A stretch of DNA of 64,000 nucleotides from Frankia casuarinae (GTDB lineage Bacteria > Actinomycetota > Actinomycetes > Frankiales > Frankiaceae), in assembly GCF_000013345.1 (NCBI RefSeq), contig NC_007777.1, positions 1,426,001-1,490,000 of the forward strand, in the 5' to 3' direction. Position 1 is the stretch's first letter, and every line of letters begins with the position of its first letter. Positions 425 to 10,693 of this stretch are shown here, piece by piece. The position numbers and the translations under genes were made by a program. The notes under the pieces were generated by a model. The model worked only from the letters and a program-made list of their open reading frames with translations. It made no database searches and was not told the DNA's origin.

Positions 425-473
425 AGAGTGGAGCGGGTGACCGGGATCGAACCGGCATGGCCAGCTTGGAAGG
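425..473. repeat. left attachment site, 49-bp tRNA-Gly 3' duplicate
   Basis: Identical to 10616-10664. It contains the complement of the tRNA-Gly T arm, the acceptor 3' strand with CCA, and the 3' part of the anticodon arm. Identity stops in the anticodon loop, where the sequence changes from GGCTGGGG at the tRNA to GGTTGATC here. No 5' half of a tRNA is present, so this copy is not a functional tRNA gene. Confidence 0.92.
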
Positions 474-673
474 TTGATCGCGGGCCTGTACGACCGCCAC
501 CAGCCCGACCGCAGAGTGCCACGAACGGCACTGAGTGCCCTCTAGGCCGCCCACCTACTGGCCCGTAGATGGCCTGCCGGATCGCTACCGAGTAGGGCGT
601 CTCCGGGCTGCTCAGGGCCTCGCGTTCGTCCCGCTTGTAAGCCACATCGTCACGGAAGGTAGTGGCCGGCAGT

Positions 674-839
674 CTGCTAGCGCTAGCACCTACACCTGCT
701 ATCGCTAGCAGGTGCGCTAGCAGTCCGCAGGCCGCCTGAGCAGCAGGCTAGCGGCTAGCAGGCTGACAGCTTTCCTCCCATCGACCCGCCAGGAGCCGCC
801 TCATGCACCCTCATGTCACTCCTGCTAGCGGCGCGACGC
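674..839. repeat. GCTAGC palindrome cluster with nested inverted repeats
   Basis: Seven GCTAGC hexamers occur at 676, 682, 704, 716, 747, 754 and 834. Two nested inverted repeats are visible: CTGCTAGCG at 674-682 with CGCTAGCAG at 715-723, and CACCTGCTA at 693-701 with TAGCAGGTG at 706-714 around a 4-nt loop. CTAG is normally rare in such DNA. The cluster lies in the gap (474-802) between the left attachment site and the first gene, so arm-type Int/Xis sites, an origin or transfer sites are candidates. Function is inferred. Confidence 0.7.
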
Positions 840-1246
840 CGCATCGCGAGCTGTCACCCTCGGCAACATCGGACGGAACCGCACCGTTGCCGTTTGGCGA
901 CGCCTCGCCCATCGGGGAAGATGGCCCGGTGACCGCAGGATCGCCTGACCCGGACCTCGAATGGTGGACGACGTCCGACGTGGCTGAGTACCTCGGTGTC
1001 CGCGTTGGCACGGTCAGCAGCTACCGGATACGCGGCCAGATGCCAGAACCCGACCGGACGATCGGACGCACGCACGTTTGGCGGCCGCAACGCATCCTCG
1101 AATGGCACGCCGGACGTACCCGTGTAGGTGTTGGGGGACGCGCTCGAAGCGGCGCGACTTCCGCACCAGACGAGCAGGCGTCGGGCGAGCTGCAAACTGA
1201 TCCGGAATCGGAGATCGGCGAATTTGAGGTGAATTCAGGTGATTGA
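803..1246 (+). CDS. helix-turn-helix (excisionase/MerR-like) protein
   Basis: A 147-residue protein preceded by a good ribosome site (AGGAG, 12 bases upstream of ATG). Residues about 50-100 contain WWTTSDVAEYLGVRVGTVSS followed by a Pro-Asp and WRPQRILEW pattern, which matches the winged helix-turn-helix of AlpA/Xis and MerR-type small DNA-binding proteins. The first 50 and last 40 residues are low-complexity tails. It converges on, and overlaps by 12 bp, the regulator gene on the other strand. A role in element control or excision is likely; the target site is unknown. Confidence 0.7.
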   Translation: MHPHVTPASGATPHRELSPSATSDGTAPLPFGDASPIGEDGPVTAGSPDPDLEWWTTSDVAEYLGVRVGTVSSYRIRGQMPEPDRTIGRTHVWRPQRILEWHAGRTRVGVGGRARSGATSAPDEQASGELQTDPESEIGEFEVNSGD

Positions 1247-2626
1247 TTTGGAGAGGGCCTCTACTCGCTCGTTAAATTCCTGCACCACCGACAATCTGTG
1301 ATACGGTACAAGATGCTGTCTTACCTGCTTTACGTGCCCGACGCAGCGCGCTGAATCAACCTCATTCGTGAGAGCGTCAATCGCCTGGTTGCCAATTGCG
1401 CATGCACTGTCCGGATCACCCTGTTGAGCGTAGGTGTCAGCCAACAGGGCTTGACGCAAAGCCCCTTCCCGAGTGTCTGGACCTCCTGTAACACCGGTAG
1501 ACAGGGACAGGTGGTCGCGGGCACGCTCCCAATCCCCAAGGCGCATGTAGCAGTAGCCAACCTGCTCATTCATCTGAGCCTCATTGAACCAGTAGGACCA
1601 CGGTGGTTCTCCGTGACCGGGAGGATTTCCGCCGAAGACGTCGAAGGCGGCATCGATTGCCCGGCGCGTCTCGACCGCGTCTTTCAGGTTCGCGTACGCC
1701 TGGGCGGCCCTCATGTTCAGGATTGCCGAAACTGTCGGGCTGGTACCGGCGTAGCCTGTTCTCGCGCTGTCTGCGAATCTCGCTGACTCGGTGAACTGGC
1801 CGATGTCCTTCGCCTGGCAACTCATGAACCCGAGGATGTTCGCGCCGAGCGCGCGGTCTCCGGCGGTGTGGGCGCTGCGCAGCCCTGCGGTGAAAAAGCG
1901 TTGCGCTTGACCGTGGCGCCCCGCGTCAAACGAGAGCCACCCCGCCAGGCGCAGAAGCTCGGCAAGCATTCCGTAAAGGTCTCGGCTCACCGAGTCGGTG
2001 TAGCGGCCGTTCTTCAGAAGGTCGGTGACATAGGATGCCTGGCTGCGGACTACTTGCACCAGGGGGCCGCTCCCGATCTGGTCGTCCATGCGGCGAAGCT
2101 CGTCTGTGATACGGCGCAGGTTGTCCACGATCGATGTTCCAACGAATCTCCCTGATTGACTCGAAAGATCGTTCGATGGCCGCGCAATGAGCCATTCATG
2201 TGCAGGAGAGGTGAGGGTGGAACCCGAAAGAACAAGAAATTGCCTTCGGTCCATTGGACTTCCCTCCGAGACTTCGGCTACTGCCGATAGTGTACCGTCC
2301 GGAGTCCATAGCCCCGTAGGGCTGGCGTCAACCTCTGCCTGATTTTTATTCTCGCTGGAAGTCTCCCGAGAATCTGCCCGCCGACCGTCGGCGGACAGCA
2401 GCATCCGGAATTGCTCCCGGACGTTGAAGGGCGCGCGCGCCAACGCGGCATCCAAGATTTCCTGAGCGGCAGGCCGCGGCACGACCTCTGGACGTGCCCG
2501 CCAGTTGGCGACGGTCCGAGCGGCTACGCCTAGGTGAGCCGCGAACCCCTCGTTGGACATCCTCAGCGCCTCACGCAGTGCGTCAGCCCGCGCTCCGGTC
2601 CACGATGCGACGACGTCCACGGTCAC
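1235..2626 (-). CDS. XRE-type regulator with TPR-like C-terminus
   Basis: A 463-residue protein. Residues about 14-55 form a helix-turn-helix (ALREALRMSNEGFAAHLGVA then ARTVANWRARP). After a linker of about 100 residues comes an all-helical region rich in Ala and Leu (about 200-440) with a repeated tetratrico-like pattern, for example AGWLSFDAGRHGQAQRFFTA. This is the layout of actinomycete XRE-TPR regulators. A 14-bp inverted repeat lies 12 bp upstream of the start, fitting autoregulation. The gene faces away from the replication genes, like a repressor controlling them. The signal sensed by the TPR part is unknown. Confidence 0.75.
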   Translation of the reverse strand: MTVDVVASWTGARADALREALRMSNEGFAAHLGVAARTVANWRARPEVVPRPAAQEILDAALARAPFNVREQFRMLLSADGRRADSRETSSENKNQAEVDASPTGLWTPDGTLSAVAEVSEGSPMDRRQFLVLSGSTLTSPAHEWLIARPSNDLSSQSGRFVGTSIVDNLRRITDELRRMDDQIGSGPLVQVVRSQASYVTDLLKNGRYTDSVSRDLYGMLAELLRLAGWLSFDAGRHGQAQRFFTAGLRSAHTAGDRALGANILGFMSCQAKDIGQFTESARFADSARTGYAGTSPTVSAILNMRAAQAYANLKDAVETRRAIDAAFDVFGGNPPGHGEPPWSYWFNEAQMNEQVGYCYMRLGDWERARDHLSLSTGVTGGPDTREGALRQALLADTYAQQGDPDSACAIGNQAIDALTNEVDSARCVGHVKQVRQHLVPYHRLSVVQEFNERVEALSKSIT

Positions 2627-2637
2627 GCCCCGAGCTG

Positions 2638-2670
2638 CACTGGCGATGCACTAACGGTGCATCGCCAGTG
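2638..2670. promoter_or_regulatory. perfect 14-bp inverted repeat, candidate operator
   Basis: CACTGGCGATGCAC at 2638-2651 and its exact complement at 2657-2670, separated by 5 bases. It lies just upstream of the regulator start codon at 2626. A further half-site-like GGTGCATGG follows at about 2677. Likely the regulator's own operator (inference). Confidence 0.6.
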
Positions 2671-2865
2671 CGCCGGTGGTGCATGGTCGTTCCCGTCGCC
2701 ACCCGCTTGACTTGAGTACATGAGGTCACCGCCTGCAGCCCGACGCCTACGCCTCCCCGAGTAGACCATGCGAACCGTCGCAGATCAGACGTTTTACCCA
2801 AGCGTGCGACAACGATCGGACACTCTGAGTTGATATCGATCACGGAAAGTTATGCGCCCCGTCGG

Positions 2866-2894
2866 TTGACGAGTACTGAGTTGTTCAGTACTGT
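2866..2894 (+). promoter_or_regulatory. strong promoter with embedded operator palindrome
   Basis: TTGACG at 2866-2871, a 17-base spacer and TACTGT at 2889-2894 make a near-consensus housekeeping promoter driving the gene row from 2972. The spacer holds AGTACTGA (2872-2879) and TCAGTACT (2885-2892), a perfect 8-bp inverted repeat overlapping the -10 box. A bound dimer would block RNA polymerase. This is a plausible control point for the element's replication genes. Confidence 0.65.
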
Positions 2895-2907
2895 CAGTCC
2901 ACGAAAG

Positions 2908-2935
2908 GCCCCGAGGAGCGGCAACTCCTCGGGGC
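2908..2935 (+). promoter_or_regulatory. leader hairpin downstream of the promoter
   Basis: CCCCGAGGAG (2909-2918) and CTCCTCGGGG (2925-2934) form a perfect 10-bp stem with a 6-base loop, extended by a G-C pair (2908/2935). It begins about 14 bases after the predicted -10 box, so it would be the first structure in the transcript. No U-run follows, so an mRNA-stabilising or attenuating role is more likely than simple termination. Confidence 0.55.
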
Positions 2936-2971
2936 TGGTGCACCGAACGCCCTGGTGAGAGGAACCGAACG

Positions 2972-3643
2972 ATGCTTCTTGAGCGTACTTCCGCGCGTCC
3001 GGTCGGGTCGATGCCCGCGGGTAGTCCTGTCGGGGGTCGCCCTGTTGGTGGTCCGCCGATGTTCGAGGAGGGGGAGTACGGGCCGACCCGTGGCTACCTG
3101 TCCGCGCGAGTGCCGCTGACGTACGCGGTGATGGTGGCCGCGCTGGTCGATGCCGACGTCATCGGCTGGGATGACGTGGCTACCCCGGAGCTGGTGCGGT
3201 ACGAGGTGGAGTACCAGGTTGCCGCCCGCGGGATGACGGCGGTGTACCAGACCTGGCAACGGCTGGCGGACGCCAACGTGCGCGGGGACGAGTGGGTGAT
3301 GCTTTGCCGCCGGGCCGTGCTCGACATGCTGATCGCCGAGGGTGTTCCGTCCGGCGTCGACGAGCTCACCGCCGGTGAGATGGCCGCCGCGCTGATGGTG
3401 CACAGCGACCTGTACGCCGAGCACCTGTCCACCCCGGTCGATGTCCGCCGGGAGCTGACCCGCCTGGCTTACAGCTACGGGGTTGACGCTCTGCGCAGGA
3501 CCGCTGCTTCCCTGGCCGGGGAGCCCTACCGGGTCCTCGCTCCCGCCTCCGACGCCGAGGCCCACGCCTGGCCGGCGTTCTGCCGCCGGGCCGTGGCCGG
3601 CATGCTCGCCGCCGACATCCGCGCCTTGGCGGGTGTGCGGTGA
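2972..3643 (+). CDS. hypothetical protein, first gene of the element's main operon
   Basis: A 223-residue protein starting at ATG and followed by a GTGA overlap with the next gene. It is mostly helical and soluble. An N-terminal Gly/Pro-rich stretch (residues 10-40) precedes a body containing VPLTYAVMVAALVDADVIGW and a terminal RRAVAGMLAADIRALAGV. I recognise no family. Its place directly behind the regulated promoter and ahead of the helix-turn-helix and HNH genes suggests an element-maintenance function. No catalytic motif is visible. Confidence 0.65.
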   Translation: MLLERTSARPVGSMPAGSPVGGRPVGGPPMFEEGEYGPTRGYLSARVPLTYAVMVAALVDADVIGWDDVATPELVRYEVEYQVAARGMTAVYQTWQRLADANVRGDEWVMLCRRAVLDMLIAEGVPSGVDELTAGEMAAALMVHSDLYAEHLSTPVDVRRELTRLAYSYGVDALRRTAASLAGEPYRVLAPASDAEAHAWPAFCRRAVAGMLAADIRALAGVR

Positions 3644-4074
3644 GCATCCCGGCCCTGGAGCATGCCGCGCCGCCGGCCGGGGGCGTCCCGGTGCCCGCCG
3701 GCTACCCGGCGGGGGATGTCGCAGCGGCGTTGCGGTGGCTTGCCGCCGAGGCGCTGCGTCTGCACGACCTGGTCGTCAACGCCGCCGACGCTGTCCCGGC
3801 TTCGGCGGTGGGGGAGCTGGGTCTGACGGCCAGCGACGTGCGCCGGTTGTGCGAGGACCGGAAGTGGAGCACTGGCCGTCTCATCGTCGAACTGCGCCGC
3901 GCCGCCGGGCGCCGTGGGGTGAGGCTTCCGGACAACGACAGCGTGAAGCGGACCGTGAGACGCTGGCGCAACGGCCACACTGCCGGCCTGTCGCCGTTCT
4001 ACGCCGATCTGCTTTCCGACGTGTTCGGCTCCGCGTTCACCTCCCGCCCGCCGTTGCAGGCGGTGGCCCGGTGA
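3640..4074 (+). CDS. small helix-turn-helix protein
   Basis: A 144-residue protein whose GTG start overlaps the previous stop (GTGA). Residues about 60-115 read LTASDVRRLCEDRKWSTGRL then LRRAAGRRG and a VKRTVRRWRNG segment. That is the helix-turn-helix pattern found at the N-terminus of many actinomycete regulators (a paired recognition helix ending in a WxxG turn). It has no other domain. Tight coupling with both neighbours suggests coordinated expression. It could repress or activate element genes. Confidence 0.6.
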   Translation: MSIPALEHAAPPAGGVPVPAGYPAGDVAAALRWLAAEALRLHDLVVNAADAVPASAVGELGLTASDVRRLCEDRKWSTGRLIVELRRAAGRRGVRLPDNDSVKRTVRRWRNGHTAGLSPFYADLLSDVFGSAFTSRPPLQAVAR

Positions 4075-4379
4075 GCGTCGGGAACCCGTCGACCCGCCGG
4101 CACCTGTTCGCCGCGTTCGGGGGCCGGTGCGGCTACTGCCTGACCGCCGCCGCCGATCATCTCGATCACCTCGTGCCGCGCGCCGCCGGGGGCACGAACA
4201 GCCGCTTCAACCTGATCCCGGCGTGCACCCCGTGCGGGACGTCGAAGGGTGCGCTGTCGGTCGCGGAGTGGGTGGCGCGCCGCGCCGCCGGCACCCTGAC
4301 GACCGGCGCCGGTGCGCCGCCGGTGCCGGTGTACCGGGTGCCGATGAAGCCGGTGAACCACCGCCCCATCGCGGCCTGA
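4071..4379 (+). CDS. HNH endonuclease
   Basis: A 102-residue protein with a GTG start overlapping the preceding TGA. Cys20-x2-Cys23 and Cys52-x2-Cys55 make a zinc site around DHLVPRAAGGTNSRFNLIPA, where His33, Asn47 and the following Lys59 fit the HNH motif. Such small HNH proteins nick or cut DNA, and in phages and integrative elements they often act in packaging, replication or homing. The gene is the last of three translationally coupled genes. Its exact target is unknown, but the family assignment is firm. Confidence 0.85.
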   Translation: MSVGNPSTRRHLFAAFGGRCGYCLTAAADHLDHLVPRAAGGTNSRFNLIPACTPCGTSKGALSVAEWVARRAAGTLTTGAGAPPVPVYRVPMKPVNHRPIAA

Positions 4380-4593
4380 CCTCCGGCCGGTCGTCACGTG
4401 ACGGCCGACGGGAACCCGATCCGCAGGTCGATCGGCAACCGGCCGGCACCCCGATCTGGACGTGTACGGCCCATTCGATCCGACTGTCGGTCCTGAGCTG
4501 GGCGGATCGACCCCGCGCGACCCTGCCCGGGTCGATCCGACCTGAGCGCCTACCGGTACGCCCTCCTTCCTGTCACCGAAAGGTGTTGCTCGC

Positions 4594-5088
4594 ATGCCCC
4601 GATCCAGTCCGCCCCCGCCGCGGGCGTTGCCCGATCCGTTGCGCCCGTCCGACACCGACCGTAACCGGCTCGGGGACGGCAAGAGTCCCAAGAGTCTCAC
4701 CAGCGGCCCCGCCCGGGACCCGATCCGCCCCGTTGGTGCTGGTCACCGGGGGGCCGGTAGGGACCGTGGGACTCTTGGGACTCTTGGGACTCTTACTCAC
4801 CGTGACCCCCGCGGCCCGGGGGGCGGGAAGGACAGGTACCGCCCCGCACGGGCGGTACCGCACCGCACTCCGGCCCCGTCGGCCGCTGTCCCGCCCCACA
4901 CGGCGGGGGAGACGAGATGCCCCCTCCCCCCGATCGGCACGCCGTGCGCGGTGCTGATCGTTGGGCGGGCGACCGCGCCGCGGGGTGACTTGCGGGTGGC
5001 TGGTCCGGCTGGACAGCGGCGCAACGCCGGGGGGGAGGGGCATCTCACTGCGGTGCCCCGCCGCCGCGGTGGTGGTGGCGTGCGATGA
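4594..5088 (+). CDS. low-complexity ORF overlapping 9-mer locus A
   Basis: A 164-residue frame starting at ATG behind GAAAGG and ending in a 4-bp ATGA overlap with the ATPase gene, which is the best argument for translation. The product is Pro/Arg/Gly-rich without a fold-like pattern, and 4681-4794 is occupied by the inverted 9-mer repeats. It may be a leader whose translation delivers ribosomes to the ATPase gene, or simply a frame open because of GC content. No function is assigned. The gap 4380-4593 before it shows no other signal. Confidence 0.35.
   Translation: MPRSSPPPPRALPDPLRPSDTDRNRLGDGKSPKSLTSGPARDPIRPVGAGHRGAGRDRGTLGTLGTLTHRDPRGPGGGKDRYRPARAVPHRTPAPSAAVPPHTAGETRCPLPPIGTPCAVLIVGRATAPRGDLRVAGPAGQRRNAGGEGHLTAVPRRRGGGGVR
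4681..4794 (-). repeat. 9-mer inverted-arm locus A
   Basis: Two copies of AAGAGTCCC-like 9-mers (4681-4698) face three exact copies of GGGACTCTT (4768-4794). Between them, at 4731-4755 read on the minus strand, is GGTGACCAGCACCAAC preceded by a C-run. The same core recurs in loci B and C. The distance from core to the far arm is 32 bases, as in locus C. Confidence 0.8.
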
Positions 5089-6722
5089 GCGGCGACCACG
5101 GCGACCCGACCGGTGCGCGCCGGTCGCGGCACCTGCACGTGGCGGTGCCGCCCGGTGGGCACGGTGACTCCGTGCCCGGGAAGGCGACCACTGCGGTTCC
5201 GGTCGACGTCCCGCACCAGCACGAGCACGAGCACAACCCGCATGACGAGCACGAGTCTGTGCCGGACGACGGCGGGTCGGGGTCACAGGCAACCCGGCTG
5301 GTTGCTCTGGCCCGGGAGCGGTACCGGGTCGTGCGCGGCAGCGACGGACGCGCCTACGCCGTTGACCTGGCCGGGCCGATGATCGCCCTGTCGCTGCGGG
5401 GCCGCGACGGTCTACGGACGCGTCTGGCCACGGCCTACTACGACCGGTTCGGGTCGACGCCGGGGGGCGGTGCGCTGTCCGACGCGCTGACCGTGCTGGA
5501 AGGCGCCGCCGCCGAAGCCGAACCGGAAGCGGTCGGTCTGCGGGTCGCTGCCACCGTCGACGGTGGGATCGTGCTCGACCTGGGCACCGTCGACGGTCGC
5601 TGTGTGCAGGTCGACGCGCACGGCTGGACCGTGCTGGAACGCTCCCCGGTGCTGTTTCGCCGGACCGCGCTCACCAGCCCGTTGCCGATCCCGGCCCGGC
5701 CTGGTGACCTGGCCGCCCTGCGCGGGCTGGTGAACGTGTCCGAGGCCGGGTTCCGGCTGCTGGTCGGGTGGCTGGTTGCCGCGTTCCTACCCGACATCCC
5801 GCACCCGATCCTGGTCCTCACCGGCGAGCAAGGTACGGCGAAGTCCACCGCGGCCCGGATCACCGTGTGCCTACTGGACCCTTCCCCGGCGCCGTTGCGC
5901 TCCGCCCCCCGCGATGCGCGGCAGTGGTCGATCACCGCGTCCGCGTCGTGGGTGGTCGCACTCGACAACGTCTCCGGGGTCGCGCCGTGGTTCTCCGACA
6001 CCCTGTGCAAGGCCGTGACCGGTGACGGCATGGTCGACCGGGCCCTGTACACCGACGACGACGTCACCGTCATCTCCTACCGCCGGGTGCTAGCCATGAC
6101 CTCGATCGACGCCGGAGACCTGGCCGGCGACCTCGCCGAACGCATCCTCCCGTTGGAACTCACCCGGATCGACCCGGCCCGGCGCCGAACCGATGGCGAG
6201 ATCTCCGCCGCCTACGACGCCGCCCGCCCCACCGTCCTGGCCGCGCTGCTGGACCTGCTGTCCCAGGTTCTCGCCACGCTGCCCGGCGTGCGGGTGGACG
6301 AGCTGCCCCGGATGGCGGACTTCGCCCGGGTCCTGGCCGCCCTCGACACCGTCACCGGCTGGACGACCCTGCCCGACTACACCACCGCCGCGGCCGACCT
6401 GGCCGCCGCCGTCGTGGCCGCTGACCCGGTCGCCGAGGCCATCCGCCGGCACCTGGCCAAAGTCGGTGCTTTCACCGGCACCGCCGAAGCGCTCTACGCG
6501 AACCTTCCCGCCCCCGACCCCCGGCCGCGGACCTGGCCGCGCTCCGCCCGTGGGATGTCCGGCGCCGCACGCCGCGTGGCACCCGCCCTACGCGCCCAAG
6601 GCGTCACGGTCGACTTCACCCGCAGTCGCGACATCCAACGTCAACGGCTCATCCACCTGGCCTACGACAGTTCTGCGATTCAACCGTCCGAACCGTCCAA
6701 ACCGTCCAAGGACCCCCGGTGA
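5085..6722 (+). CDS. P-loop ATPase, putative replicative helicase
   Basis: A 545-residue protein with ATG inside an ATGA overlap. Residues 1-70 are a His/Asp/Glu-rich disordered tail. The core has LTGEQGTAKSTAARI (Walker A, GxxGxAKS at 247-254), then WVVALDNVSG (Walker B-like, about 285-295), and an ERILPLELTRI segment typical of the sensor and arginine-finger side of such ATPases. This resembles the helicase-like ATPases found with primases in actinomycete plasmids and prophages. The last residues (PSEPSKPSKDPR) are encoded by 9-mer locus B, whose core supplies the stop codon. A role in element replication with the Prim-Pol protein is inferred. Confidence 0.75.
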   Translation: MSGDHGDPTGARRSRHLHVAVPPGGHGDSVPGKATTAVPVDVPHQHEHEHNPHDEHESVPDDGGSGSQATRLVALARERYRVVRGSDGRAYAVDLAGPMIALSLRGRDGLRTRLATAYYDRFGSTPGGGALSDALTVLEGAAAEAEPEAVGLRVAATVDGGIVLDLGTVDGRCVQVDAHGWTVLERSPVLFRRTALTSPLPIPARPGDLAALRGLVNVSEAGFRLLVGWLVAAFLPDIPHPILVLTGEQGTAKSTAARITVCLLDPSPAPLRSAPRDARQWSITASASWVVALDNVSGVAPWFSDTLCKAVTGDGMVDRALYTDDDVTVISYRRVLAMTSIDAGDLAGDLAERILPLELTRIDPARRRTDGEISAAYDAARPTVLAALLDLLSQVLATLPGVRVDELPRMADFARVLAALDTVTGWTTLPDYTTAAADLAAAVVAADPVAEAIRRHLAKVGAFTGTAEALYANLPAPDPRPRTWPRSARGMSGAARRVAPALRAQGVTVDFTRSRDIQRQRLIHLAYDSSAIQPSEPSKPSKDPR

Positions 6723-6913
6723 CCAGCACAAACGCGCTGGACGGTTGGCCGCGCCGATCGTCCAGTCCCGCCCGCCGACCGTCCAATCCGTCACGCACCT
6801 GGACGGTTGCCCGCTCGATTGGACGATCGTCTGTCCCCAACCGTCCAGCCCTGGCACCCATGCTGACCTGCGGAAACGTCGATGCCTGGACGGTCTGGAC
6901 GGTTCGGACGGTC
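6682..6913 (+). repeat. 9-mer inverted-arm locus B
   Basis: Three copies of AACCGTCCR (6682-6708) precede the core CCCCCGGTGACCAGCACAAA (6713-6732). Three inverted copies of YGGACGGTY follow at 6887-6913. The intervening 150 bases hold further single copies in both orientations (for example GGACGGTTG at about 6739 and 6801, and AACCGTCCA at about 6839). The left arm lies inside the end of the ATPase gene. The right arm ends 29 bases before the next small gene. Confidence 0.8.
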
Positions 6914-6942
6914 GTTTCCGCACTCTGTTGAAGGACACGCCC

Positions 6943-7050
6943 ATGAACCCGACCGCGCTCGCCGACCAACTCACCGCCGCCACCCGCGACGCCCGCCGCC
7001 ACCTCGACACCCTCCTGAAGATCCTGCGGGAGCCGGCGGCGGCCCAATGA
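6943..7050 (+). CDS. 35-residue amphipathic small protein
   Basis: ATG follows AAGGAC at good spacing, and the stop overlaps the next start as ATGA. The sequence MNPTALADQLTAATRDARRH continues as a single predicted helix with alternating Leu/Arg faces and ends PAAAQ. I recognise no family. The ribosome site and coupling make it likely to be translated. It might be a small nucleic-acid-binding or partner peptide of the element's replication proteins. Confidence 0.55.
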   Translation: MNPTALADQLTAATRDARRHLDTLLKILREPAAAQ

Positions 7051-7310
7051 CCGCCCGTCAGGGGTTGTGGACTCCCGACCTCGCCGACGACTCTCTCGAT
7101 CCGCAGGTCAGCGAGACCGCGATCGTCACGGTGAGTCAAACTCCCGAAACTCCCGAAACTCCCGCGGTGTTTCGGGGCTCCCCAGTGACCAGCGCCAACA
7201 GCCCCGGAGAGGCTGCGGGTGGGGGGGTGGACGGGAGTTTTGGGAGTTTCATCGCCGCACGGTGGGGCACGTTCGGTCACCGGACGCGACACCCTCGATA
7301 CCAACCCTGA
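7047..7310 (+). CDS. 87-residue hypothetical protein containing 9-mer locus C
   Basis: The ATG overlaps the preceding TGA (ATGA). The first 30 residues (MTARQGLWTPDLADDSLDPQ onward) look like ordinary protein. Then the 9-mers are read in frame as three TPE/ETP tripeptides, and the core is read as SPVTSAN. The C-terminal third (DGSFGSF, then Arg/His-rich) derives from the right arm. It could be a real small protein invaded by the repeat, or a frame kept open by it. No function is assigned. Confidence 0.45.
   Translation: MTARQGLWTPDLADDSLDPQVSETAIVTVSQTPETPETPAVFRGSPVTSANSPGEAAGGGVDGSFGSFIAARWGTFGHRTRHPRYQP
7138..7249 (+). repeat. 9-mer inverted-arm locus C
   Basis: Three exact copies of AAACTCCCG (7138-7164), then the core CCCCAGTGACCAGCGCCAAC (7180-7199), then after 32 bases two inverted copies CGGGAGTTT and TGGGAGTTT (7232-7249). 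The architecture matches loci A and B, but with a different 9-mer. Confidence 0.8.
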
Positions 7311-7316
7311 GTAACC

Positions 7317-7432
7317 GTCGTCAGGTCGTCGTCGCCTCGACCGTCACCCCCGCCACGACGGCCCCCAACCGGCCACAGAGCGACGAATCCCGGTCCGACC
7401 AGGACCTGACGACCTGACGACAACCTGACGAC
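7317..7432 (+). repeat. possible fourth, degenerate inverted 9-mer locus D
   Basis: GTCGTCAGG at 7317-7325 is followed by a TCGTCGTCG run. Three copies of its complement CCTGACGAC lie at 7405, 7413 and 7424. The spacing is irregular (8 and 11) and the GTGACCAGC core is missing, so membership of the family is uncertain. It fills most of the gap between the 87-residue ORF and the ORF at 7490. Confidence 0.45.
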
Positions 7433-7489
7433 GACGATCCCCCACCACCGTCCGTCATCAAACCCCAAGCACGGAGAGGCGGTACCCCC

Positions 7490-7627
7490 ATGCCCAAAAC
7501 CGTCTCTGTGCCCGCGAACCCCCACCGCTACCACCGCGCCGTGCCCTTCGAGCCACCCCCACCGAACCCCCACCCACAGACCCGACCGGCCTGGCCGGGG
7601 GCTGCTAGCAGCTCATCCCACCCCTGA
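7490..7627 (+). CDS. possible 45-residue Pro-rich peptide
   Basis: ATG follows GGAGAGG at about 9 bases. The product starts MPKTVSVPANPHRYHRAVPF and becomes Pro- and Ser-rich. The frame runs into the left arm of the large GCTAGC hairpin. Only the ribosome site and the non-repetitive first half favour translation. No family is recognised. Confidence 0.3.
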   Translation: MPKTVSVPANPHRYHRAVPFEPPPPNPHPQTRPAWPGAASSSSHP

Positions 7628-7658
7628 CCAGGGATCTAGCAGCTAGCAGCCCCCGGCC
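7593..7658. repeat. 16-bp inverted repeat with GCTAGC, large hairpin
   Basis: GGCCGGGGGCTGCTAG (7593-7608) and its exact complement (7643-7658) flank a 34-base loop that includes CCCTGACCAGGGA, itself a small palindrome, and a second CTAGCAGCTAGCAG run. It shares GCTAGC/CTAGCAG units with the cluster at 674-839. Placed just upstream of the Xis-like and primase genes, it could be a single-strand initiation or nicking site, or a terminator. Confidence 0.65.
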
Positions 7659-7733
7659 CACCACCCCCGAAACGCCCCCCACCACCCGATCCGCACCCCC
7701 CCAACCACCTGCTAGGAAGGATCACCCAACCCC

Positions 7734-8030
7734 ATGGCCGACACCGCCCCCCGCGACAACCGCACCCCGACCCGACCCGCCAGCAAACCCACCCCGGCCA
7801 CCCTCCCCGCCCCGTGCCGCGCGGTCTACACCGTCGCCGAAGCCGCCCACATGCTCTCCCTGTCCCTCGCCAGTACCTACGACCTGCTGCGCCGCGGCGA
7901 CCTCCCCGGACGGCGTCTCGGCCGCCGCTGGGTCATCCCCCGCGACCGGTTCCACACCTGGCTCGACAACCTCCCCGCCGCCGACCCCCACGACACCGAC
8001 CCCGCCGACGGGCAGGACAACCAGCCATGA
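7734..8030 (+). CDS. excisionase-family DNA-binding protein
   Basis: A 98-residue protein with ATG behind AAGGA. Residues 31-82 read VYTVAEAAHMLSLSLASTYD, then LLRRGDLPGRRLGRRWVIPR, then DRFHTWL: the full MerR/AlpA-like winged helix-turn-helix of the excisionase (HTH_17) family. The tails are charged and disordered. The stop overlaps the primase start (ATGA), so the two are made together. It is more likely a replication-associated DNA-binding or control protein than the true Xis, which is the gene next to the integrase. Confidence 0.8.
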   Translation: MADTAPRDNRTPTRPASKPTPATLPAPCRAVYTVAEAAHMLSLSLASTYDLLRRGDLPGRRLGRRWVIPRDRFHTWLDNLPAADPHDTDPADGQDNQP

Positions 8031-8914
8031 CCACCCCCCGCCCGTCGATGCTGCCCGCCGCCGTCACCTACGCCGACCAGGGATGGCCGGTGTTCGTCCT
8101 CGGACGTACCAAGCGGCCGGTGGCGAACTGTGAGCCCTGCGCGCAGGCAGGGCCAGACCACGACAGGGAAGCCTGCCCGTGTCTGACCTGCCACAGCTTC
8201 TACGCCGCCACCACCGACCGAAACCGCATCGTCGCCATGCTCGCCGCCGTCCCTGACGGCCTGTTGGCGATCCGCACCGGCACCGCCGCCGGCCTGGCCG
8301 TCATCGACATCGACCCCCGCAACGGCGGCACCCTCGACCGGTCGCTGATGACCCCCACAGCCGCCGTGGCCACCGGCGGAGGCGGATGGCACCTGTACTA
8401 CCGCCACCCCGGACATCCGGTGCTCTCCCGGCCCCTCACCGGCGCTCCCGGCATCGACATCAAGGCGGACGGCGGGTTGGTGGTCGCGCCGCCGTCACTG
8501 CACCCGACCACCGGCCGTCCCTACCAGTGGGCCGGCACCCGGCCGGTAGCCGAGATGCCCCCCGCCCTCATCGCCGCCGTGGCCGCCGATCCGCCCATGA
8601 CGAAACCCGCCCCGCCACGCAGCTGCACACCGGCCCGCGTCTCGTCACGCGCCGGAGAGGCGGGGGGCATCTCAAACCCCGCCGCGTTGCTCGCCGCACA
8701 CCTGGCCGCCGTCGCCCGAGCACCCGAAGGACGCCGCCGCACCACCCTCTACGGCGCCGCCCGCGGCATCGCCCGCATGGTCGCCGCCGGCCACCTCACC
8801 ACCACCGAAGCCTGGGCCGCGCTCACCGACGCCGGACACACCGCCGACCAGACCGACCGCGACATCAACGCCGCCATCACCGGCGGATTCCACGCCGAAG
8901 GAGTCCCCACCTGA
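8027..8914 (+). CDS. bifunctional DNA primase/polymerase (Prim-Pol)
   Basis: A 295-residue protein. VIDIDPRNGG (Asp94 and Asp96), GGGGWHLYY (His122) and GIDIKADGGLVVAPPS (about 142-157) are the three motifs of the archaeo-eukaryotic primase fold as found in plasmid and phage Prim-Pol proteins. Cys35, Cys38, Cys50, Cys52 and Cys55 form a putative zinc knuckle near the N-terminus. The enzyme would prime and extend DNA synthesis for the excised element. It is coupled to the upstream DNA-binding gene, and its helicase partner is probably the ATPase at 5085. The C-terminal third is helical without known motifs. Confidence 0.85.
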   Translation: MTTPRPSMLPAAVTYADQGWPVFVLGRTKRPVANCEPCAQAGPDHDREACPCLTCHSFYAATTDRNRIVAMLAAVPDGLLAIRTGTAAGLAVIDIDPRNGGTLDRSLMTPTAAVATGGGGWHLYYRHPGHPVLSRPLTGAPGIDIKADGGLVVAPPSLHPTTGRPYQWAGTRPVAEMPPALIAAVAADPPMTKPAPPRSCTPARVSSRAGEAGGISNPAALLAAHLAAVARAPEGRRRTTLYGAARGIARMVAAGHLTTTEAWAALTDAGHTADQTDRDINAAITGGFHAEGVPT

Positions 8915-9018
8915 ACCAGCCCACACCACACCTCAACGGCACCCCCGGCGAAGCCGACCAAGCACCCGCCGGGAGCACCCGCCCCCATCCGCTCGAAACG
9001 AAGGAAGGCACACCTATC

Positions 9019-9345
9019 GTGGCTCAATCCCTTACCAGCCCACAGGCGGGCGGTGTGGTCCTCGCGATACCCGCCCGCCACCGAGCGTCGACGCGACCGG
9101 CCGCCGGTACGACCTCCCCACCGGCGCCGTTGGGCGACATCCTGACCGTCGAGCAGGCCGCTGCCCGGATGAACATGAGTGTCCGGTACGTGCGCCGCCT
9201 GGTTGCGGAACGGCGTATCGCGTTCCACCGCATCGGCCGGTCGATCCGGCTGACCTCCGCCGACGTTGACGCCCATATCGCGGCCGGTCGTGTCGAGTCG
9301 CTCACGGTCTCCAAGGTTTGGCGCGACGTACGGAGCGTGATCTGA
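9019..9345 (+). CDS. xis: excisionase (Xis)
   Basis: A 108-residue protein starting at GTG behind GAAGGAAGG. Residues 45-95 contain ILTVEQAAARMNMSVRYVRR followed by AFHRIGRSIRLTSADVDAHI, a complete HTH_17 excisionase domain. Its stop overlaps the integrase start (TGATG), the standard xis-int arrangement of actinomycete elements. It would bend attachment-site DNA and favour excision. An upstream in-frame extension exists but lacks sense as protein, so the GTG is preferred. Confidence 0.85.
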   Translation: MAQSLTSPQAGGVVLAIPARHRASTRPAAGTTSPPAPLGDILTVEQAAARMNMSVRYVRRLVAERRIAFHRIGRSIRLTSADVDAHIAAGRVESLTVSKVWRDVRSVI

Positions 9346-10529
9346 TGGCCGCCCGTCGCCGCTTCGGCAGCATTCGCCGCCGCGAGTCCGGCCGATACCA
9401 GGTCCGCTATCCCGGGCCGGACGGACAGCAGCGCACCGCACCCGAGACATTCGCGCGGAAGAGTGAAGCGGAACGGTATTTGACCCTCATCGAGGGTCAA
9501 ATACTGCGCGGAGAATGGATCGATCCGGAGCGCGGAAAGGTTACCCTGACCGACTACGCCGCCCGCTGGATTGTCGAGCGGCCCAATCTCAGGCCACGCA
9601 CGATCGGCCTGTATTCGGGGCTCCTCACCCGGCATATCACGCCGTACATCGGGGGTATTCCGATCGGCAAGCTCACGACTCCGATCATCCGCGAGTGGCG
9701 GACAAAGCTACTCGAATCGGGCGTGTCGGTGGGTACGACGGCGAAGGCGTACCGGCTGCTGCGCGCCGTGCTCATGACTGCGGTCCGGGAAGACGAGCTG
9801 ATCAGGACCAACCCGTGCCGTATCCCCGGGGCCGATCAGGAGAACGCTCCCGAGCGTCCGGTCCTGACCGTTTCTCAGGTGTTCGCTCTCGCGGAGAAGC
9901 TTGGTGGTCGGTACCGAGCGCTCGTGCTGGTGACCACCTTTGCCTCCCTGCGGTGGGGTGAAGTGGCCGCGCTTCAGCGACGCGACCTCGACACCGACGA
10001 CGGCATCGTGCACATCAGGCAGTCCCTGGTGGAGATCGGTGGGCAAGGGGTCGTTCTCGGTCCGCCCAAGTCCCGGGCGGGTGTCCGTACCGTGTCTCTC
10101 CCAGCGGTGATTCTGCCGTGGCTTCGGATCCACCTTGCCGAATATGTGGCGGACGATCCGGCGGCATTCGTGTTCACAGGACCGAAGGGTGGATTTCTGC
10201 GCCGCGGGAACTTCCGGAAGCTCGTGGGATGGTCAGACGCGGTTGCTGCCATCGGCATGCCGAACCTGCACTTTCACGACCTGCGGCACACCGGCAACAC
10301 GCTGGCGTCTAGGACCGGGGCGAGTCTGCGGGACCTGATGACGCGCATGGGGCACGACTCGCCCCGCGCCGCGCTCATCTACCAGCACGCATCCACCGAG
10401 GCTGACGCGGCCATCGCGGACGCCCTCAGCGCCGTCCTGGCCGCGCAGCAGGGGAGCGTGCCACCTCCCGCGCCACGCCCGGACGACACCCCCGAGGACG
10501 GGGCCGCGGGGGCTCTCGTGCCGGCCTAG
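9345..10529 (+). CDS. int: tyrosine integrase
   Basis: A 394-residue tyrosine recombinase. An N-terminal arm-binding part (1-65) precedes a SAM-like core-binding domain (66-165) and the catalytic domain, with Arg203 (SLRWGE), Lys242 (PPKSRAG), His311-x2-Arg314 (HDLRHT), His337 (MGHDS) and nucleophile Tyr346 (IYQHAS) all present. It therefore looks active. It catalyses recombination between the tRNA-Gly 3' end and the element's own site. A TTG 27 bases upstream would also fit the frame, but the coupled ATG is preferred. The gene ends 87 bp from the attachment repeat. Confidence 0.95.
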   Translation: MAARRRFGSIRRRESGRYQVRYPGPDGQQRTAPETFARKSEAERYLTLIEGQILRGEWIDPERGKVTLTDYAARWIVERPNLRPRTIGLYSGLLTRHITPYIGGIPIGKLTTPIIREWRTKLLESGVSVGTTAKAYRLLRAVLMTAVREDELIRTNPCRIPGADQENAPERPVLTVSQVFALAEKLGGRYRALVLVTTFASLRWGEVAALQRRDLDTDDGIVHIRQSLVEIGGQGVVLGPPKSRAGVRTVSLPAVILPWLRIHLAEYVADDPAAFVFTGPKGGFLRRGNFRKLVGWSDAVAAIGMPNLHFHDLRHTGNTLASRTGASLRDLMTRMGHDSPRAALIYQHASTEADAAIADALSAVLAAQQGSVPPPAPRPDDTPEDGAAGALVPA

Positions 10530-10574
10530 TGGCCCGTGGATGGCCTATGACCCGATGCTGACTGTCTGAACGAT

Positions 10575-10617
10575 CTTCACCCCCTGGCCGGAACATAGCC
10601 CTGACCAGGGGGTGAAG
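10575..10617. terminator. hairpin between integrase and tRNA-Gly
   Basis: CTTCACCCCCTGG (10575-10587) pairs perfectly with CCAGGGGGTGAAG (10605-10617). It ends the integrase transcript and, read on the other strand, lies directly behind the tRNA-Gly 3' end. It overlaps the first bases of the attachment repeat. Confidence 0.7.
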
Positions 10618-10664
10618 AGTGGAGCGGGTGACCGGGATCGAACCGGCATGGCCAGCTTGGAAGG
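10616..10664. repeat. right attachment site within tRNA-Gly
   Basis: The 49-bp partner of 425-473. Identity covers the tRNA 3' end through the anticodon loop, so integration rebuilt an intact tRNA gene at this side. Confidence 0.92.
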
Positions 10665-10693
10665 CTGGGGCTCTGCCATTGAGCTACACCCGC
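10620..10693 (-). tRNA. tRNA-Gly (TCC)
   Basis: Read on the minus strand the gene begins GCGGGTGTAGCTC and ends CACCCGCTCCA, with CCA encoded. The anticodon stem CCAGC/GCTGG encloses loop CTTCCAA, giving anticodon TCC. The T loop TTCGATC is canonical. It serves as the integration target and is transcribed away from tRNA-Pro. Confidence 0.95.

Follow-up and report, generated by a model that had tools for sequence, protein, structure and literature searches.

The window analyzed here, a stretch of 64,000 nt from Frankia casuarinae, carries near its left end an integrated element that spans about positions 425-10664 and sits in a tRNA-Gly gene between two 49-bp att copies. attL (425..473, minus strand) duplicates the 3' part of the tRNA-Gly gene and is identical to attR (10616-10664); the integration target, tRNA-Gly(tcc), was located at 10620..10693 (minus strand) by ARAGORN and Rfam. 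Three identical 102-bp tandem repeats (115-419) lie directly to the left of attL, outside the element. On its plus strand, the element encodes an HTH_17/MerR-like DNA-binding protein (803..1246; Pfam PF12728, E 1e-4), a P-loop replication-type protein (5085..6722), a Prim-Pol (8027..8914; PF09250, E 8.5e-31), an Xis-like HTH_17 protein (9019..9345; E 7e-11) and a tyrosine integrase (9345..10529; PF00589, E 5.7e-13), and on the minus strand an HTH + TPR regulator (1235..2626; Pfam TPR_12); an HNH protein and an HTH protein at 7734 are encoded as well. Its Int/Xis genes, tRNA att sites and own replication protein (the Prim-Pol) are shared with AICEs of the pSAM2, pMEA300 and pSE211 types, which likewise combine Int/Xis, Prim-Pol or another replication protein, and tRNA integration. 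For integration and excision the element uses its own Int/Xis, and its replication probably depends on the Prim-Pol and the P-loop protein that it encodes. No FtsK/SpoIIIE-type TraB, another AICE trait, is encoded among the ORFs of 425-10664.

Between attL and the gene at 803 lies a clt-like array on the plus strand, which lies about 200 bp inside attL. Unit 1, GCTAGCGCTAGC (676..687), is an inverted pair whose place and layout recur in TraB-positive relatives; unit 2, GCTATCGCTAGC (698..709), follows 22 bp after unit 1, with a 10-bp spacer that is kept in nearly all relatives. Next come a single half-site (716..721, with TAGC at 718-721), represented in relatives by n(n)TAGC with the palindrome being optional, and a middle box, GCCTGAGCAGCA (734..745), the counterpart of CTGANCAG or CTGGCCAG in relatives, where its position and part of its sequence are conserved. 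Unit 3 (747..759), a direct repeat TAGC-N3-TAGC, forms the conserved polar end of the array. Sequence comparison further assigned an RBS, a start codon and the first codons MHPHVTPAS, including a GCTAGC at 824, to 791..829 (plus strand); this segment resembles the start of a small zinc-ribbon ORF found behind AICE arrays (VDPHVTAAS at one locus, with similar starts at others).

The conserved unit is the 12-bp palindrome GCTAnnnnTAGC, present at 676-687 and 698-709 with a period of 22 bp and followed by the polar tail of TAGC half-sites. The hexamer GCTAGC, on which the initial annotation had focused, is not itself the unit, since it arises whenever the inner bases of GCTAnnnnTAGC are G/C. Its accumulation was nevertheless confirmed: seven copies fall within 154 bp (676-829; starts at 676, 682, 704, 716, 747, 754 and 824), and the 64-kb window contains 13 versus 6.96 +/- 2.56 in shuffled sequences. 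Other 6-bp palindromes reach at most five copies per 166-bp stretch of the window, including CGGCCG with a window total of 163 against 13 for GCTAGC. The tetramer CTAG is found at 16 places within the 10.2-kb element, against 9 in the 53 kb on its right side. Genome-wide, five of the nine GCTAGC pairs at most 30 bp apart and all four three-in-a-row places belong to 676-829, and the 5.43-Mb Frankia genome has no second cluster of this kind. The two nested inverted repeats that had been pointed out are both present (664-683/714-733 and 674-688/697-711), and the second set noted in a hairpin at 7593..7658 (plus strand) proved real by pattern match: at 7606-7647, TAGC-N27-TAGC-N3-TAGC reproduces the TAGC-N(about 27)-TAGC-N3-TAGC layout of 718-759, and thus repeats the array's 3' half in unchanged orientation. 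No third place with this layout exists in the 64 kb.

Pattern searches recovered an array with its parts in the same order from Streptomyces, Micromonospora, Nonomuraea, Planosporangium and other Frankiaceae, so that the conservation in related elements on which the initial annotation had made its proposal depend is strong and extends across several genera. The layout starts with GCTAnnnnTAGC, ten bases, a second GCTAnnnnTAGC, about seven bases and a single TAGC, and ends with about 23-27 bases containing a CTGANCAG-like box, TAGC-N3-TAGC, an RBS and a start codon; an extra GCTAGC or GCTATC is often found within the following gene, about 18-21 bases past its start. A palindrome-N9..11-palindrome pattern was detected in 97 of 327 genomes of Streptomycetaceae (the family identity having been deduced from Streptomyces loci), with a spacer of 10 bp in nearly every case listed, whereas the reversed control pattern was rare; one further family that was searched yielded no arrays. 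In the relatives, the array lies directly 3' of the stop codon of an FtsK/SpoIIIE-like traB and 5' of the small zinc-ribbon ORF, and thus adjoins traB in conjugative elements as known clts do, while the window itself lacks traB. Across 63 distinct TraB-array pairs, collected by a stop-codon search that also takes in TraBs with an in-frame TAG inside the array, the gap between traB and array in most cases measures 11-16 nt, with 2 and 58 nt as the extremes.

A scan of viral contigs (IMG/VR) gave 91 matches, the last eleven of which were looked at; three contigs from the scan carry TraB plus array, and some AICE-like elements thus appear to be filed as viruses. Exact GCTAGC triplets on genome contigs were a mixture of true arrays, simple tandem repeats and groups in front of TetR-like genes, and only the palindrome-N10-palindrome pattern separated the true arrays from the other groups. 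At five loci, GCTAGC groups of different layout precede the starts of TetR-like ORFs (TRRERERAER...); these are probably operators unrelated to clt.

The central tetramer of the palindromes falls into four classes: NCGN (GCGC, ACGT, ACGC, TCGC), TCGA, CCGG and GRYC (GGTC/GACC and similar). Array class and the C-terminal motif of the associated TraB agree in 44 of 44 pairs, the classes and the wing rule having been drawn from the data first and tested afterwards; a stricter first form of the W-wing pattern gave 37/44 and was redefined before the hold-out. GRYC goes with W followed by G.G(A/T), NCGN with GRRxxGKxV(T/N)RRG, TCGA with GKFxNKRG, and CCGG with DGTR or DGRQ. With the rule fixed in advance, 19 previously unread TraBs, which are related to the training TraBs and are scored against a scheme in which NCGN is a broad class, gave 15 correct, four uncalled and no wrong assignments, the uncalled ones being near-variants (QMWG; AGTTDDGNRTT and AGTTDDGARTT; ISRRNPETNKQ). 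In a TraB phylogeny from which the last 75 residues had been removed, the class switches 12 times and the wing likewise 12 times, and phylogenetically independent pairs were concordant in 6/6 cases for GRYC and 6/6 for NCGN (sign test, p 0.03 each).

When every aligned TraB column of the 63 pairs was scanned without guidance, the six top-ranking positions fell at residues -24 to -33, and position -25 nearly separates the classes by itself: G accompanies GRYC in 32/34 cases, A/V/T/S/P accompany NCGN in 18/18, F accompanies TCGA in 4/4 and Q/R accompany CCGG in 7/7. AlphaFold predicts a winged-helix fold for the TraB C-terminal domain (pLDDT about 90 across the fold), with the class-linked residues in its beta-hairpin wing; a Foldseek search of this domain against the PDB returned weak winged-helix matches, none of them significant (best E 0.05). 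The TraB C-terminus predicted array class in 55 of 59 cases, versus 35 of 59 for the small ORF on the other side, roughly what a constant guess of the commonest class would give. This ORF lies equally close to the array and is not predictive, so hitch-hiking does not explain the co-variation. Given this co-variation of wing and palindrome center, a TraB-binding clt is the most likely identity of the array. The general idea of binding sites for a protein of the element, as put forward in the initial annotation, would therewith hold as far as protein binding is concerned, but the binder is most likely TraB, for which the element has no gene; the protein encoded at 803 may bind the array in addition.

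We put the probability at roughly 80% that the array is a TraB-loading clt and that the element is a conjugation satellite moved by the matching TraB of a helper AICE. The array at 676-759, together with the site at 824, would serve as a cis-acting loading site for a hexameric FtsK-like TraB on dsDNA, and TraB positioned there would pump dsDNA to the recipient during conjugation between mycelia. The C-terminal winged helix of TraB is predicted to occupy the GCTAnnnnTAGC palindromes in pairs along a single helix face, in line with the 22-bp phasing, with its wing reading their central bases, while the polar TAGC tail may set the direction of loading. Upon entry of an AICE with a matching TraB (wing GRRIDGKAVTRRG), the element of the window could then be transferred as cargo. 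Sequence comparison directly shows the array's layout and conservation, its place next to traB in relatives, its coupling to the TraB wing and its retention in TraB-less elements; TraB binding, loading direction and mobilization are what we infer from this.

In the window, array, RBS and first codons are kept and traB is absent, and the ORF runs on into the HTH protein. A full array without traB is what would be expected of a mobilizable element, given the role of a recognition site that the co-variation suggests for the array. Because the docking site is present and the pump absent, the element probably travels on the pumps of other elements. At E<=1e-3, no TraB of the array-linked clade was found in the organism's own genome, and hence there is no resident helper of the matching class, a point against the satellite reading.

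The same condition is encountered in a sister element from another Frankiaceae genus (L275), which is integrated at tRNA-Ala with a 44-bp att repeat and has neither traB nor a detectable Prim-Pol. It encodes homologues of the proteins at 803 (80% identity, same place), 2972, 3640, 4071 (92%) and 5085 (86%; 53% in the L313 element), while its integrase differs (29%). Window and sister element are 85% identical over array plus leader, whereas the flank between att and array, which places the sister array about 240 bp inside attL, has no recognizable likeness. Six elements from Streptomycetaceae, picked for showing several arrays, carry three arrays each (L310-L312; CCGG, TCGA and ACGC-type) or two arrays of different classes (L313-L315); L310-L312 are probably interrelated, and the six thus represent fewer than six independent cases. 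No TraB was found within the 14-18 kb fetched for each, and their arrays adjoin xis/int and are co-oriented with each other and with int, whereas twelve traB-positive loci from the same fetch have exactly one array each. A TraB-positive AICE of matching class resides beside a TraB-less element in four Streptomycetaceae genomes. The best reading of such TraB-less elements, judged from their gene content and arrays, is that of conjugation satellites mobilized in trans, several arrays per element possibly widening the range of helpers. We consider it rather probable that dsDNA-conjugation satellites with one to three clts of differing specificity, addressed through a simple code between a few TraB wing residues and the GCTAnnnnTAGC center, are widespread in actinobacteria and can thereby use several types of helper AICE.

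The alternative that survives best, although unlikely, is that the element is a relic, i.e., a decayed AICE whose traB is gone and whose clt persists by inertia. CcI3 elements without tra or rep are called remnants or mobilizable elements by Ghinet et al. (2011, PMC3218068), and one Frankiaceae locus with an array (L274) is remnant-like. However, the TraB-less layout recurs in two separate elements that occupy different tRNA genes in different genera and in which the array is conserved but its flank is not, and the relic explanation is disfavored because two to three array classes per element cannot stem from one traB loss.

Improbable, in our estimation, is a replication origin bound by the Prim-Pol or a partner helicase, another suggestion of the initial annotation. 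Most array-bearing AICEs have Prim-Pol downstream, and in the window the HTH and Prim-Pol genes follow closely downstream of the half-array at 7606-7647; the array of the sister element, however, exists without detectable Prim-Pol and is thus not confined to Prim-Pol elements, and Prim-Pol was not detected near the arrays of two traB-positive Frankiaceae loci either (L269, 9985; L273, 9998). Moreover, array class tracks the TraB wing through the 12 switches, and two to three classes in one small element would suit several pumps better than several initiators, so that we rejected the Prim-Pol origin. The same two Frankiaceae loci show TraB and array followed by an Xis-like gene and are possibly defective AICEs.

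Equally improbable is that the array is merely an operator or promoter through which a repressor of the element, or TraB itself, controls the gene behind it. In its favor, the array was captured jointly with the RBS and the start codon, and GntR/XRE-type regulators are common in array-bearing elements. Against this stand three Frankiaceae loci (L270, L272, L274) at which no correctly oriented gene was found behind the array, the position of the L310-L315 arrays beside xis and int, and co-variation with TraB rather than with the adjacent ORF; a regulatory role on the following gene could still exist in addition to the clt function. These three loci and L276, likewise from Frankiaceae, have arrays with TraB not detected; serine recombinase genes lie near the arrays of L270, L272 and L276, and a tRNA-Lys near that of L274. 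Arm-type Int/Xis sites, also raised initially, are highly implausible and were rejected: the arrays lie near attL in the window and its sister element and adjoin xis/int in L310-L315, but in TraB-positive AICEs the array sits mid-element behind traB, far from att, follows traB and not att/int across related elements, and retains one layout alongside unrelated integrases (only ~25-30% alike), and some array loci have serine recombinases in the vicinity (L270, L272, L276).

Clt sites and FtsK-like transfer are already known. In the Streptomyces plasmids pIJ101, pJV1, pSVH1 and pWTY27, clt usually adjoins tra and is a cluster, about 50-175 bp long, that contains short direct repeats (TGACACC in pWTY27, CCGCACA[C/G][C/G] in pJV1, GACCCGGA in pSVH1) and some inverted repeats. 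The pWTY27 clt, for example, comprises 16 bp of traA and the adjacent 159 bp, is rich in repeats and is bound by TraA, and published clts adjoin tra and are bound by Tra (PMC3583192). The features that our arrays would share with these clts are dsDNA transfer and binding by an FtsK-like Tra/TraB protein, the latter demonstrated in the cases of pSVH1 and pWTY27; 12-bp palindromes, 22-bp phasing, a polar tail, a distant TraB clade and the class code set the arrays apart. That known TraB/TraA sites contain direct repeats and are not mainly palindromic counts against the clt reading. Relatives of the element would transfer dsDNA by TraB as AICEs do, the element itself being devoid of traB; pSAM2 is without a described clt motif (PMC9513070), and the main text of Ghinet et al. 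(2011, PMC3218068) names no cis site for Fcci0407, Fcci1144, Fean1457 and FeuI5809. A parallel is offered by relaxase-free (non-canonical) IMEs, known for T4SS conjugation, which bear in cis the site that the helper recognizes and exploit its machinery in trans (PMC5704250); those depend on relaxase/T4SS and ssDNA, whereas dsDNA, TraB and several clts of differing specificity per element would be involved here. In the searchable literature, in which many journals are missing, we found no published description of the motif, the wing-center code or multi-clt elements. The concrete site and its specificity code are open to testing by point mutation, natural TraB-less elements seem to exploit this code, and the arrays might furnish mobilization tools for Frankia and other actinobacteria without genetic tools.

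Two minor observations concern neighboring genes. The N-terminus of the protein at 803 (803-850) seems, by sequence, to be borrowed from the AICE zinc-ribbon ORF; a further homologue (L083) aligns from residue 49 onward only. In addition, short repeat sets flank the P-loop gene at 5085 (4767-4794, 6660-6910, 7138-7164 and 7310-7430), among them three copies of TGGGACTCT, three of AAACTCCCG, many copies around CCGTCCA, and GTCGTCAGG; these repeats are iteron-like and may constitute the real replication origin.
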